DNA of 64,000 nt from Halorussus limi (GTDB lineage: Archaea; Halobacteriota; Halobacteria; Halobacteriales; Haladaptataceae): the NCBI RefSeq assembly GCF_023238205.1, contig NZ_CP096659.1, positions 2,559,626 to 2,623,625 on the forward strand. Direction: 5' to 3'. Numbering within the stretch: position 1 is the first letter of the stretch; each line of letters begins with the position of its first letter. Position numbers and translations under genes: made by a program. Shown piece after piece: positions 7,903 through 13,978 of the stretch. The notes under the pieces were generated by a model. The model was not told the DNA's origin and did no database searches. It saw nothing but the letters and a program-made list of their open reading frames with translations.

Positions 7903-8166
7903 ATGGCAGACGAAGAAATCGAAGCCGAACTCCGCGAACAGTTCACCGAGGCGTTCGAAGGTGCGGACTACCCGGTCAGCAACCCGATGGACCTCGTTCC
8001 CGCGCTCCCGAACGGACCGGGCACGCGCTTCGAGGCCGGTGACGTGAGCTTCACCGCGATGGAGCTGTCAACGAAGATGTCGGACTCGCAGGACTTCCCC
8101 TACGACGACGTGGACTCCCTCGTGGGCGACCTCATCGAGGGTCTGAAGCAGAAGGACATGATTTAG
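7903..8166 (+). CDS. MTH865 family protein
   Basis: An 87-residue acidic soluble protein with the MTH865-like helical fold: an N-terminal helix (EAELREQFTEAFEGADYPV), the conserved central NPMDLVPALPNGPGTRF segment and a C-terminal helix. The family is widespread in Euryarchaeota and has no established function. The start has a TATA-like element about 28 bases upstream. A perfect 10-base palindrome sits directly in front of that element at 7861-7870 and could be an operator. Confidence 0.85.
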   Translation: MADEEIEAELREQFTEAFEGADYPVSNPMDLVPALPNGPGTRFEAGDVSFTAMELSTKMSDSQDFPYDDVDSLVGDLIEGLKQKDMI

Positions 8167-8457
8167 CTACTCTTCTTCCTCTTCTTCCTCGTCGGGAAGC
8201 GCGACCAGTAGGACCTCCCACACGTCGTACTGCTCGTTGAAGTGGCTGTCGAGGACGCGGTCCTTCTCGCCGATTGGAATCGGCTGTTGCGGGTGGGACA
8301 CTTCGAGCCACGTCACGGTCGGCTCCGTGATGTCCATCTCTGCGATATCGTCGGGCTGGTCGGCGGCCCCGGCCGATTCGTTCACGTTTCGCTCCCCCGG
8401 ACCTGTCGGTATACCTTGACGTTCCACGTAATTCTCCCCCGTCGCCTCGTACCACAC
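8167..8457 (-). CDS. Hypothetical acidic protein with poly-Glu tail
   Basis: A protein of up to 96 residues with no recognised domain. The core (EPTVTWLEVSHPQQPIPIGE through EQYDVWEVLLVALP) looks like a small beta-rich domain and the C-terminus ends in seven consecutive Glu. It ends on the base next to the stop of the convergent MTH865 gene. The start is uncertain: the first in-frame GTG is at 8457, but the TATA-like ataaaa at 8464-8469 is too close to it, so the in-frame GTG at 8427 is a good alternative. Confidence 0.5.
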   Translation of the reverse strand: MWYEATGENYVERQGIPTGPGERNVNESAGAADQPDDIAEMDITEPTVTWLEVSHPQQPIPIGEKDRVLDSHFNEQYDVWEVLLVALPDEEEEEEE

Positions 8458-8534
8458 CGTTCCATAAAACTGTGCTGGGCCGACCCCAGCGACGGTTCGG
8501 AAGCGACAAGTTCCGACCGTTCCAACGTCCGACG

Positions 8535-9959
8535 ATGAGACGGTCGAACGTCCGACTTCTGGCGCGCGCTGCGCTCGCTCTCGTCGCGGGGACGCTCTGG
8601 GCCGGAACCGCGCTCGCCCACGGCGGCGGCCTCCGCGCGGCCGCGGGGAGCCTCTCGGTGCCGACGTGGCTGTTCCTGCTGACGGGCGGCGGCGTCGTCG
8701 GCGCGTCGTTCCTGCTCGCCAGTTTCGTCACCGACCGCGCGTTCATCCGGGCGGTTCACGGCTGGCGGCGGGTCGCGGGCGCGCGACTCGACGCCGTAGC
8801 GACGCTGACCCGCGTCCTCTCTGTCGCGGCCCTGCTCGGCATCGTCGCGGTCGGCTTCCTCGGCCCGGAGACGATGTTCCGGAACGCCGCGATTCTGGTC
8901 GTCTGGGTCGGCTGGTGGGCGGGCTACGTCGCCACGGTGTATCTGGTCGGAAACAGTTGGCCCGCGCTGAACCCGTGGCGCGCCGTCGCCGAGTGGCTGC
9001 CGACGCTCGACCGCGACTACCCCGAGCGACTGGGCGCGTGGCCGAGCGTGGTCGGCATCCTCGCGCTGGTCTGGCTCGAAGTGGTTAGCCCGCTGGCCGA
9101 CGACCCGCGCCTGCTGGCGTGGGTCGTCGTCGGCTACACGGTCTTCACCCTCGCGGGCGCGCTGGTGTTCGGTCCCGACTCGTGGTTCGGCTACGTCGAC
9201 CCGATTGCGCGACTCTTCCGGTACTACGGTCGGGTCGCCCCGATTCAGCGGGTCGAAGACGGCGACGCCGACGGGGACGACGGAACCGGTGCCGACCGCG
9301 GCGTCCGCGGCTTCGAACTCCGACCGCCGGGCGCGGCGCTGACCGACCCGCTTCCGGACGACGGCCGGGACGGAGTCGCCTTCGTGGTGGCGATTCTCTG
9401 GGTCACGACCTACGACGGCTTCGTCGGCACGCAGGTCTGGGTCGGCGCGGCGCGCGCCGCGGTCGGCGCGGGCGTGCCTCCGGTCGTCCTCTATCCGGCC
9501 GCACTGATCGCGGGCTACGCGCTCTTTCTGGGGGCGTGGTGGCTCGCCGCCGGACTGTCGCGCCGGACCGCCGACACCTACCTGACCCCGGACGCCATCG
9601 CGCGCCGGTTCGCGCCCTCGCTGTTGCCCATCGCGGCGGGGTACCACCTCGCGCACTTCCTCGGCCTGTTCGCATCGCTGTCGCCCGCGCTCGTCGCCGC
9701 CCTCTCCAATCCGCTCCAGCCGCCCATCAACCCCTCCGTGGTCGTCCTGCCGGGATGGTTCGGGATGGTCGCCGTGGCGTTCGTCCTCCTCGGGCACCTG
9801 CTGGCGGTCTGGGTCGCCCACGCGAGCGCCTACGAGGTGTTCCCGGGCCGGTTGCAGGCGGTCCGGAGCCAGTACCCCTTCGTCGTCGTGATGGTCCTCT
9901 ACACCATGACCAGTCTCTGGATAGTCTCGGCGCCGAGCGCCGCACCGCCGTTCGTCTGA
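8535..9959 (+). CDS. Large polytopic membrane protein of the oxidase neighbourhood
   Basis: A 474-residue protein with about ten to twelve hydrophobic segments and no family name that I can assign. The N-terminus (RRSNVRLLARAALALV...LAHGGG) looks like a signal sequence or first transmembrane helix with a cleavage-like ALAHG site. Long aromatic helices follow (LVVWVGWWAGYV, ALNPWRAVAEWLP). The ATG at 8535 was chosen because the upstream in-frame stretch is Arg-rich and lacks hydrophobic character. It is followed after 22 bases by the zinc-finger membrane protein gene and lies upstream of coxA, so a role in oxidase assembly or as an accessory subunit is a reasonable inference. Confidence 0.65.
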   Translation: MRRSNVRLLARAALALVAGTLWAGTALAHGGGLRAAAGSLSVPTWLFLLTGGGVVGASFLLASFVTDRAFIRAVHGWRRVAGARLDAVATLTRVLSVAALLGIVAVGFLGPETMFRNAAILVVWVGWWAGYVATVYLVGNSWPALNPWRAVAEWLPTLDRDYPERLGAWPSVVGILALVWLEVVSPLADDPRLLAWVVVGYTVFTLAGALVFGPDSWFGYVDPIARLFRYYGRVAPIQRVEDGDADGDDGTGADRGVRGFELRPPGAALTDPLPDDGRDGVAFVVAILWVTTYDGFVGTQVWVGAARAAVGAGVPPVVLYPAALIAGYALFLGAWWLAAGLSRRTADTYLTPDAIARRFAPSLLPIAAGYHLAHFLGLFASLSPALVAALSNPLQPPINPSVVVLPGWFGMVAVAFVLLGHLLAVWVAHASAYEVFPGRLQAVRSQYPFVVVMVLYTMTSLWIVSAPSAAPPFV

Positions 9960-10464: not shown

Positions 10465-10824
10465 ATGGACGAGCAACCCGGACTGAGCGACGAGTACCGA
10501 AAGGCGAGTCCGTGGCCGCTGTTCGTCGCCTTCGGTCTCGCCATCTTCGAGGTCGGCATCGTCTGGCCACTCTTCCCCGTCGCGGTCGGCGGACTCCTCC
10601 TGTTCGTCGGGAGCGTCGTCGGCATCCTCCGCGAGTCGGGGTACATCGCCGACCCGTGGAAGGGTCTGGTCACGGCGTCGATACTCTGTCTGGCCGTCGG
10701 CGGCGCCATCGCCTACTTCACGACCGGTTCGATACACCTCCGCGGAGTCGCCATCCTCGTCGGCGGCGTCATCTTCCTCTTCAGCGGAATCTTCGGGTCG
10801 GTCTGGCAACCGACGGCGGCGTAG
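10465..10824 (+). CDS. Small oxidase-associated membrane protein (DUF7541-like)
   Basis: A 119-residue protein with four hydrophobic segments, arranged as a short soluble N-terminus (MDEQPGLSDEYRKASPWP) and two helical hairpins with charged turns. A cctttag element about 27 bases upstream supports a leaderless start at 10465. It lies in a row of small membrane protein genes leading to coxA. I recognise it as a family that accompanies haloarchaeal terminal oxidases; its exact role is not known. Confidence 0.65.
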   Translation: MDEQPGLSDEYRKASPWPLFVAFGLAIFEVGIVWPLFPVAVGGLLLFVGSVVGILRESGYIADPWKGLVTASILCLAVGGAIAYFTTGSIHLRGVAILVGGVIFLFSGIFGSVWQPTAA

Positions 10825-10929
10825 CGACCCTCGAACGGGAACGCGTGCGAGCGGAAGGCGGCGTAGCGCGGCCCGCGCGGCCGAACCGAATCGGCAACCT
10901 ATTTGGGACCCCCGTGGCTATCGTCGTCT

Positions 10930-11163
10930 ATGGCAACCCCCATCTTCGAACGGGAGACGTGGCTCGACATCACGGTTAACATCATCCCGCTCTGCATCAT
11001 CGGCTTCTTCGTCGCGCTGTTCGTCGTCAAGTCGCCGTGGGAGATAGAAGGACTGACCTCCGCCATCGGATTCGCGCTGCTCATCGTCCCCTTCGTCCTG
11101 CTCACGTACCTGACCTACGTCGCGGCCGACCTCATCGAGTCCGCCGAGTCCGGTTCGGAGTAA
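10930..11163 (+). CDS. Small oxidase-associated membrane protein (DUF6684-like)
   Basis: A 77-residue protein with two transmembrane helices (about residues 15-36 and 47-66) and an amphipathic N-terminus starting MATPIFERETWLD. The start at 10930 is supported by a ctatttgg element about 28 bases upstream. It sits directly before coxA, separated by about 150 bases containing strong inverted repeats. It is likely a minor subunit or assembly partner of the oxidase, by context only. Confidence 0.7.
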   Translation: MATPIFERETWLDITVNIIPLCIIGFFVALFVVKSPWEIEGLTSAIGFALLIVPFVLLTYLTYVAADLIESAESGSE

Positions 11164-11311: not shown

Positions 11312-13087
11312 ATGGTAGAAGCCGGGCAAATCGCACTCACCGTCGTCATGGGGCTCCTCCTGTTCGGGGTCGCCACGTTCCTCACTCGCTTAGAGGACTG
11401 GCGCTCCTACACGCCCCTCGCGGGCGGCGGGTACGTCGGCGAACAGACCGGGCAGGCCCACAGCGAGAAGCCTGCCGGAATCGTGCGTTGGCTAACGACT
11501 GTCGACCACAAGGACATCGGTATGCTGTACGGCCTGTACGGCATCGTCGCGTTCGCGTGGGGCGGAATCGCCGTCCTGCTCATGCGCGCCGAACTGGCCG
11601 CACCCGCCGAGAACATCATCGGGGCGAACTTCTACAACGCTCTGCTGACGACTCACGGCATCACGATGCTGTTCCTCTTCGGGACGCCGATTCTCGCGGC
11701 GTTCGGCAATTACTTCATCCCGCTGCTCATCGGCGCGGACGACATGGCGTTCCCTCGCATCAACGCCATCGCATTTTGGTTGCTGCCGCCCGCGGCCGTC
11801 CTCATCTGGGCGGGGTTCCCGCTGGCCTCGCTGACCGATAGCATCGACCCGGCCCAGACGGCGTGGACGATGTACACGCCGCTGTCGGTCGAACAGACCA
11901 ACCCCGGCGTGGACCTGATGCTGCTCGGCCTCCACCTCTCGGGGGTGTCGGCGACGATGGGTGCGATAAACTTCATCGCGACCATCTTCACCGAGCGCGG
12001 CGAAGAGGTGGGTTGGGAGAACCTCGACATCTTCTCGTGGACGATGATTACCCAGTCGGGACTCATCCTGTTCTCGTTCCCGCTGCTGGGGAGCGCACTG
12101 GTCATGCTCCTGCTCGACCGTAACTTCGGCACGATGTTCTTCGCCGCGGAGGGTGGTGGTCCCATCCTCTGGCAGCACCTGTTCTGGTTCTTCGGCCACC
12201 CCGAGGTGTACATCCTCGTGCTGCCGCCGATGGGACTGGTCAGTCTCATCCTGCCCAGATTCGCGGGCCGGAAGCTGTTCGGGTTCAAGTTCGTCGTCTA
12301 CTCGACGCTGGCCATCGGCGTCCTCTCCTTCGGCGTCTGGGCTCACCACATGTTCGCCACCGGCATCGACCCGCGCATCCGAGCGAGTTTCATGGCGGTG
12401 TCGCTTGCAATCGCGGTGCCGAGCGCGGTCAAGACGTTCAACTGGATCACCACGATGTGGAACGGGAAACTGCGTCTGACCGCACCGATGCTGTTCTGCA
12501 TCGGTTTCGTCCAGAACTTCATCATCGGGGGCGTCACCGGCGTCTTCCTCGCCTCCATCCCGGTCGACCTCGTGCTGCACGACACCTACTACGTGGTCGG
12601 GCACTTCCACTTCATCGTGATGGGCGCCATCGCCGTCGCCGGGTTCGCGGGCATCTACTACTGGTTCCCGCTCTACACCGGTCGGATGTACCAGCGCACC
12701 CTCGCCAAGTGGCACTTCTGGCTCACCATGATCGGTAGCAACGTGACGTTCATCGCCATGCTCCTGCTGGGTTACGGCGGGATGCCCCGGCGCTACGCGA
12801 CCTACGTCTTCAGTAACCCGGAGTTGGTCTCGATGTTCACCAACCTGCACATCATAGCGACGGTCGGCGCGTTCATCATGGGCTTCGGCCAACTCATCTT
12901 CGTCTACAACATCGTCACGTCGTGGCTTGAAGGCCCCCACGTCGAGAGCGGCGACCCGTGGGACCTCGAAGACACCGGCATGAAGACCAAGGAGTGGGCG
13001 TGGTTCGAGCGCAAGCGCGAGACGGCCCTCACCGACGGCGGCGAGGAAGTCGCCGCTGACGGTGGCGAGACCGTCGAAGACGAATAG
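11312..13087 (+). CDS. coxA: Cytochrome c/quinol oxidase subunit I, type A1 heme-copper oxidase
   Basis: The 591-residue catalytic subunit that reduces oxygen and pumps protons. All cofactor ligands are visible: His115 and His433 for the low-spin heme, His431 for the high-spin heme, and His296, His345 and His346 for CuB, with the cross-link Tyr300 in GHPEVY. D-channel residues are present (Asp144 in GADDMAFP, Asn133, Asn151, Glu298) as is the K-channel Lys374, so it belongs to type A1 and not to the ba3 class. The C-terminus is an acidic cytoplasmic tail. A TTTA element 24-27 bases before the ATG indicates a leaderless message. Subunit II and III genes are not adjacent. Confidence 0.95.
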   Translation: MVEAGQIALTVVMGLLLFGVATFLTRLEDWRSYTPLAGGGYVGEQTGQAHSEKPAGIVRWLTTVDHKDIGMLYGLYGIVAFAWGGIAVLLMRAELAAPAENIIGANFYNALLTTHGITMLFLFGTPILAAFGNYFIPLLIGADDMAFPRINAIAFWLLPPAAVLIWAGFPLASLTDSIDPAQTAWTMYTPLSVEQTNPGVDLMLLGLHLSGVSATMGAINFIATIFTERGEEVGWENLDIFSWTMITQSGLILFSFPLLGSALVMLLLDRNFGTMFFAAEGGGPILWQHLFWFFGHPEVYILVLPPMGLVSLILPRFAGRKLFGFKFVVYSTLAIGVLSFGVWAHHMFATGIDPRIRASFMAVSLAIAVPSAVKTFNWITTMWNGKLRLTAPMLFCIGFVQNFIIGGVTGVFLASIPVDLVLHDTYYVVGHFHFIVMGAIAVAGFAGIYYWFPLYTGRMYQRTLAKWHFWLTMIGSNVTFIAMLLLGYGGMPRRYATYVFSNPELVSMFTNLHIIATVGAFIMGFGQLIFVYNIVTSWLEGPHVESGDPWDLEDTGMKTKEWAWFERKRETALTDGGEEVAADGGETVEDE

Positions 13088-13148: not shown

Positions 13149-13562
13149 CTACTGCCGGAACTGGTCGGCGTAGTCGGCGATGTACGCCCGGAGCGTCCGG
13201 GGGTCCCGACCCAGAACCCGCGACACGTCCTCGGTCACGCGGTCCGCGAGACCGAGGCGCGCAGTGGTGTAGATGGCGACCATCACGGCGACGTAGGACC
13301 AGTCGAACCCCCGGCGGTGCATGTGCCACGCGAACTCCGGAATCGAGGAGTCGGCGTACTCAACCGACCGGTTCAGCACCGCGCTGAACACCCCGGCGAC
13401 CTGCCGGTACGTGAGCGCGTCGGGACCGGTCAGGTCGTAGGCGCGGCCGCGGTGACCGCGCTCCGTCAGCGCGACCGCGGCGACCTCGGCCACGTCGCGG
13501 GCGTCCACGAAACTCGTCGCGAGGAGTCGCCCCCTCTCGGACTCGGTGGCGTCGGCGCTCAC
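13149..13562 (-). pseudogene. N-terminally truncated NAD(P)-binding (NmrA/SDR-type) protein remnant
   Basis: A 137-residue open frame matching only the C-terminal half of NmrA-like atypical short-chain dehydrogenases, normally near 280 residues. SFVDARDVAEVAA, AYDLTGPDALTYRQVA and the final helix pair (RVLGRDPRTLRAYIADYADQ) are typical, but the N-terminal Rossmann half with the GxxGxxG motif is missing. The place where it should be is occupied by a 28-residue membrane protein gene whose TGA overlaps this frame's GTG start by four bases (GTGA). It is most likely a decaying remnant, although translational coupling could still express it. Confidence 0.65.
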
Positions 13563-13645
13563 GTCAGAGCCAGTACGATACCCATCGTGAACATGAGAAC
13601 GGCGATTCCCCCGAGGATGTAGGCCAGCATGTCCTTCTCGGTCAT
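13559..13645 (-). CDS. 28-residue single-helix membrane microprotein near coxA
   Basis: A tiny gene with ATG at 13645 and TGA at 13559. The peptide begins MTEKDMLAYILGGIAVLM and continues as one hydrophobic helix rich in Met and Ile, ending ALT. A charged N-terminus followed by one transmembrane span is the form of minor oxidase subunits. It is convergent with coxA and separated from it by the NmrA remnant, with which it shares a GTGA overlap. It is below normal gene-calling length. Association with the oxidase is inferred from position. Confidence 0.6.
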   Translation of the reverse strand: MTEKDMLAYILGGIAVLMFTMGIVLALT

Positions 13646-13705
13646 ACCGGAAGTTGGGCCGTACGGATGAAAAGGCTAATCCTTCCGCCGCTCGGACCCT
13701 CGAAC

Positions 13706-13978
13706 GTGAGCGAGACGTTCCGCGGACGGTCGTTCGTCGTCGGGTTCTACCTGCTCATCGTCGCCATCACCGGCGCGGTCGGCGCGATACTCGGCGTTGT
13801 CGGGCCGGACGACCTCACCGCGGTCAAACTCTTCGGACTGGTCGAACTCCAACCGACGCCGCTCGGTCTCGCGGTCTACGGCACAGTGACGGTGGGACTC
13901 GTGCTCGGGGTCCTGCTGATGCTGGTCGTCGTCGTCTCCAAGGTGGCCGACGCCGAGAGCGCGGGGAACAGGCCCTGA
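13706..13978 (+). CDS. Small two-helix membrane protein (DUF7520-like), oxidase-associated
   Basis: A 90-residue protein starting at GTG (VSETFRGRSFVVGFYLL). Two transmembrane helices lie at about residues 10-32 and 53-77, with an acidic and hydrophobic loop (GPDDLTAVKLFGLVELQPT) between them. The GTG at 13706 was preferred to an ATG 39 bases upstream because an AT-rich patch (aaaaggctaat, 13669-13679) sits at promoter distance. It is divergent from the 28-residue microprotein gene, 60 bases away, and the two may share a regulatory region. Families of this kind accompany haloarchaeal oxidases. Confidence 0.65.
   Translation: MSETFRGRSFVVGFYLLIVAITGAVGAILGVVGPDDLTAVKLFGLVELQPTPLGLAVYGTVTVGLVLGVLLMLVVVVSKVADAESAGNRP

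Follow-up and report, generated by a model that had tools for sequence, protein, structure and literature searches.

We found that the window, by which we mean the whole 64,000-nucleotide stretch of Halorussus limi DNA that was analysed, carries a conserved haloarchaeal membrane peptide gene at the locus of the oxidase gene coxA, and that the product belongs to no known family. Three observations, a conserved helix face, a peptide gene that is single in nearly all genomes and a presence and absence that match those of coxA, lead us to favor the reading that this microprotein is a small single-helix accessory subunit of the haloarchaeal A-type heme-copper oxidase, or a close assembly or stability partner that would associate with it physically; we consider this reading reasonably probable. 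The composition of haloarchaeal terminal oxidases is poorly defined, and a class-wide 28-residue gene that follows the oxidase and has no family model suggests an overlooked piece of the enzyme or of its assembly line. The features of the locus are listed in Table 1.

Table 1. Features of the microprotein locus, in window coordinates
Feature	Position	Strand	Basis or remark
Microprotein gene, single helix, 28 aa, ATG start	13559..13645	-	ORF and conservation
TATA-like TTTT box, -28..-25 from the microprotein ATG	13670..13673	-	Distance compatible with a leaderless transcript
18-bp element GGATGAAAAGGCTAATCC, near-invariant in the family, divergent promoter of microprotein and DUF7520	13665..13682	.	
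NmrA-family gene, Rossmann half deleted, 137 aa	13149..13562	-	Outside the conserved unit
coxA, A-type heme-copper oxidase subunit I, convergent neighbour	11312..13087	+	PF00115, E 8e-149
DUF7520 gene, divergent neighbour	13667..13978	+	PF24364, E 5e-25
DUF6684 gene, same cluster	10903..11163	+	Profile match
DUF7541 gene, same cluster	10465..10824	+	Profile match

The minus-strand frame of the microprotein encodes MTEKDMLAYILGGIAVLMFTMGIVLALT, in which a charged N-terminus (TEKD) is followed by about 20 hydrophobic residues. It is flanked by coxA on one side and by the DUF7520 gene on the other, so the preliminary description, which had placed a frame of 28 residues with a charged N-terminus and one predicted transmembrane helix between these two genes, was right on this point. 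A search of 59 genomes gave a peptide match in 39 of them at E ≤ 10, the weakest being chance matches. At E < 1e-4, the genus contributed 18 genomes with a match, the rest of the family 10 and a different family a single one; the peptide was thereby present in all 18 same-genus genomes (the window's own included) and in all 10 of the other family genomes sampled. When 196 genomes were searched across the phylum, the 21 matches all fell within the window's own order. Nearly all genomes with a match had one peptide copy. Within the genus, pN/pS was 0.26 (dN/dS about 0.18), compared with a mean of 1.02 and a minimum of 0.48 in 300 shuffles of the alignment columns, and the mean number of distinct bases at codon positions 1, 2 and 3 of the genus alignment was 1.67, 1.22, and 2.63, respectively. 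These results indicate that the frame is a real protein gene under purifying selection and not a chance ORF.

The distribution of the peptide was compared with that of coxA in 242 Halobacteria genomes with a completeness of 90% or more, with cut-offs of E ≤ 0.05 for the peptide profile and E ≤ 1e-150 for close coxA. The profile matched in 166 genomes and coxA in 168; both were found in 155 and neither in 63, while 11 had the profile match only and 13 had coxA only, counts in which kinship is ignored. Among the 11 profile-only genomes, eight (those of genus g7 and G069) had matches that were internal pieces of long ORFs and were rejected as chance; G153 lay outside this check, and in G079 coxA was present in fragments only. 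Genome G091 is a true exception, with the peptide and without coxA of the window type. The 13 coxA-only genomes were searched again, and seven had a clear divergent peptide beside coxA. In G121, a piece of a divergent peptide beside coxA was cut by the contig end, and five genomes of family f8 had weaker candidates near coxA (two scoring below 0.01, one scoring 0.24, and those at L168 and L172 recognized by eye only).

Family f8 was also counted separately, in 116 genomes at least 95% complete. With a coxA cut-off of E ≤ 1e-190, picked after the list was seen, 56 genomes had both genes, three the peptide only, nine coxA only and 48 neither (Fisher p 1.5e-19, kinship ignored). At a coxA search cut-off of 1e-120, the numbers, worked by hand, were 57, 2, 11, and 46, respectively. 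The peptide gene and coxA are mostly unlinked in this family, yet they co-occur, and in genera g10, g35, and g42 some members lack both while others have both. The peptide thus shows the genomic co-occurrence beyond linkage that would be expected of a small subunit of an oxidase. The unlinked co-occurrence and the joint absence are our strongest argument for a functional link to the oxidase and not one of mere location.

The surroundings of the peptide gene were surveyed at 105 loci, one in each of 105 genomes. Within 1.5 kb, DUF7520 was found at 92, coxA at 85, DUF6684 at 15, DUF7541 at 13, and nmrA at eight, the first 30 loci having been read to no more than 1.5 kb on either side. Non-conservation of the peptide at this position in relatives, which the preliminary description took as counting against its reading, is clearly contradicted by the count for coxA. 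The usual order is usp, DUF7520 (divergent), peptide, coxA (convergent), DUF6684, and DUF7541, so that the peptide gene is usually convergent with coxA and not in an operon with it; the coxA of the window carries the sequence GHPEVY, which we take to be the A-family motif. Five loci of the 105, from genera g49 and g31, have only the peptide gene inverted in place, so that it runs with coxA, and both its position between coxA and DUF7520 and its protein are retained. The 20 loci without a near coxA belong mostly to family f8; of the others, one ends with its contig and a few have only DUF7520. At most f8 loci, no coxA separates DUF6684 from the peptide gene, which remains with DUF6684 and DUF7541, and several have no detectable DUF7520 nearby. 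In this family, the order DUF7541, DUF6684, microprotein, and sometimes DUF7520 was kept without coxA at L190, L194, L124, L126-L129, and L131-L138, and the genomes of these loci have a coxA-like ORF elsewhere, with a longer open frame of about 760-780 aa in most.

A second coxA in the window's own genome (L205, contig C2 of G000, 8164-9903) is 82-83% identical to that of the window. The microprotein, DUF6684, and DUF7541 were not detected near this second copy, and the genome carries one peptide gene.

This arrangement also bears on the reading that the microprotein works with a different membrane protein of the cluster (DUF7520, DUF6684, or DUF7541), for instance to deliver heme or copper while the oxidase is being made, and is never part of the oxidase. 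We judge it unlikely, with enough in its favor to be weighed seriously: DUF7520 is the commonest near neighbour, ahead of coxA, and has a divergent promoter in common with the peptide gene, the peptide gene stays with DUF6684 and DUF7541 in f8 where coxA is missing between them, and the C2 coxA lacks the peptide. Nevertheless, the presence of the peptide still follows that of coxA in the genome, and the f8 loci without a detectable DUF7520 argue against DUF7520 as the partner. Taking the oxidase reading further, we tentatively suggest that the microprotein is an undescribed subunit of the aa3-type oxidase throughout the Halobacteria, within a haloarchaea-specific set (the peptide, DUF7520, DUF6684, and DUF7541) that would replace helices of the bacterial oxidase complexes and would be needed even when the catalytic gene is relocated; we would put this slightly below an even chance. 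Such a grouping turns four unknown families into one defined and testable set.

Conservation along the helix was examined in 94 distinct sequences. For residues 6-26 it had a helical periodicity with its moment peak at 100 degrees, and this 100-degree moment was matched by none of 20,000 shuffles. Positions L11, A15, M18, G22, and L25 were among the most conserved and lie on the same side, so the microprotein has a single hydrophobic helix with one conserved face, a pattern that packing of the helix against a protein would produce. Of the 11 loci without an aligned ATG or GTG, ten were read, and these have in-frame upstream starts that give N-terminal extensions of 5-24 residues, several of which carry RR directly ahead of the helix. 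This placement of RR suggests an N-terminus on the inside, and the microprotein probably forms a single transmembrane helix in that orientation. Among the f8 loci, L126, L129, and L132-L136 have extensions of 11-24 residues that are mostly acidic, with RR at or near the end before the helix.

For the favored oxidase role, the microprotein would be inserted in the membrane as a single helix, and its conserved face (L11, I14/A15, M18, G22, and L25) would pack against a membrane partner. The likeliest partner would be CoxA, or CoxA together with DUF6684, DUF7541, and DUF7520. That the peptide is translated, how it sits in the membrane, which protein it binds and how it affects the oxidase are steps that we infer. 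On the other hand, the size and composition of the microprotein, with a short charged start and one helix, resemble those of stress or toxin-like hydrophobic peptides (type I toxins or membrane-depolarizing peptides), one of which could have come to a stable locus by chance. This reading was rejected as very improbable on the grounds of the one copy in nearly all genomes with a match, the stable core respiratory locus, the conserved helix face and the co-occurrence with coxA.

The upstream region was compared at the 94 of 105 loci in which the aligned first residue of the microprotein is ATG or GTG. A TTWT or CTTT sequence lay at -33..-22 in 87 of these 94 loci, compared with zero to three in seven control windows of equal size, and TTTT began at -28 or -29 in 69 of them. 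Published work on Haloferax volcanii identifies the haloarchaeal TATA box as TTWT and counts 72% of the protein-coding transcripts as leaderless (PMC4983044). Together with this pattern, the spacing of the box in most loci makes it probable that the microprotein gene has a TATA box of its own, which drives a leaderless transcript. The microprotein gene also illustrates well how an archaeal gene this short can carry a recognizable leaderless promoter.

With a conserved divergent promoter in the same region, the conservation could be read as that of regulatory DNA or RNA and not of a protein. We rejected this reading, to which we give almost no weight, on codon phase and pN/pS: substitutions at the third codon position dominate, pN/pS is far below the shuffles, and the conserved 18-bp element stops short of the microprotein start codon. 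The first codons of DUF7520 (MKRLI) overlap this near-invariant element and a GTG at the position of 13706 is kept in relatives, so the true start of DUF7520 is possibly GTG 13706 and not ATG 13667.

Small subunits of other oxidases were then compared with the peptide. Subunit IV of bacterial aa3 oxidases is a one-helix accessory subunit of an A-type oxidase, and membership in this family was rejected, as there was no match over cut-off to its family profile. CydX, the 37-aa small subunit of the cytochrome bd oxidase, is also a single helix below 40 aa at an oxidase locus that is often unannotated and has its conserved residues on one helix side (PMC4325964). It differs in that the bd oxidase is not a heme-copper oxidase and that CydX is encoded with cydAB, whereas the microprotein gene has a separate promoter and in most loci converges with coxA. 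The YxxWxxG motif of CydX, with its conserved Trp, is absent, and there is no Trp in the window peptide or as the commonest residue of any column in 94 sequences. With the motif and Trp missing and coxA in place of cydAB as the neighbour, the peptide is not a CydX-like protein.

Subunit IIa/CbaD of the ba3-type oxidases is likewise described as a protein of 34-78 aa with one transmembrane helix that is linked to the oxidase, overlooked by annotation and found in haloarchaea (PMC3128077). The same source places it with B-type oxidases, directly upstream of subunit II, and gives it a PxGT motif and Trp, none of which the window peptide has (PMC3128077). The window peptide instead adjoins a coxA of the A type that has no neighbouring coxB, and about 50 kb separate the locus from the closest PF00116 match. 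Membership in CoxIIa/CbaD was therefore rejected on the missing motif, the A-type coxA neighbour and the lack of a Pfam match. No Pfam or NCBIfam family exceeded its cut-off for the window peptide or for divergent members. A PDB profile search with the peptide returned only flotillin (E 1.3-3.4), and tblastn with one divergent member against plasmids gave no match. Literature searches, which covered few subscription papers, found no description of the peptide, and a search on DUF7520, DUF6684, DUF7541, and "cox cluster protein" found no paper. By analogy, the microprotein resembles CydX and CoxIIa in size and, probably, in role, and belongs to neither.

On the side of coxA, the microprotein TGA (13561-13559) overlaps the GTG (13562-13560) of the NmrA-family ORF by four bases, GTGA. 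This ORF matched positions 169-282 of 287 in TIGR03649 (E 3e-18, below the cut-off), and it lacks the N-terminal Rossmann half, with the VTGATGxVG of the relatives, that an NmrA-like protein has. Both the overlap and the missing half had been noted in the preliminary description; its suggestion that the remnant may have been fused to this locus is not supported. Intact NmrA-family genes were found in four genomes of the genus, G010, G008, G007, and G011 (309, 294, 298, and 284 codons, respectively; that of G008 matches PF05368, E 3e-24), and all four start at a GTG overlapping the peptide TGA. The overlap is thus ancestral in the group and the pair was inherited, and the window copy has an internal in-frame loss of about 157 codons: ATSFVDAR begins at codon 15, compared with codon 172 in G008. 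This overlap would also suit a role of the microprotein as leader peptide or in translational coupling of the downstream NmrA gene. As the main role of the microprotein, such coupling is refuted by distribution and hardly credible, since the eight loci with similarity to the window NmrA near the peptide are all in the genus and the other loci, as in most relatives, have the peptide without NmrA. The NmrA remnant is incidental to the microprotein and plays no part in the link to the oxidase.

The NmrA copies of G005 and G002 (L008) are frameshifted and deleted, and G014 (L004) has weak C-terminal similarity only; no recognizable NmrA gene was found in the remaining same-genus loci that were read. 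Judged from these reading frames, the NmrA gene is decaying repeatedly within the genus. Over its C-terminal 122 codons, the remnant had a dN/dS of 0.22-0.34 against the intact copies, and the value between intact copies was 0.14-0.36. In addition, the deletion in the window copy could have come about through a short repeat, GCGACG, and the same-genus genes at L001, L008, and L149 (L011) are broken in at least three ways, which suggests repeated loss.
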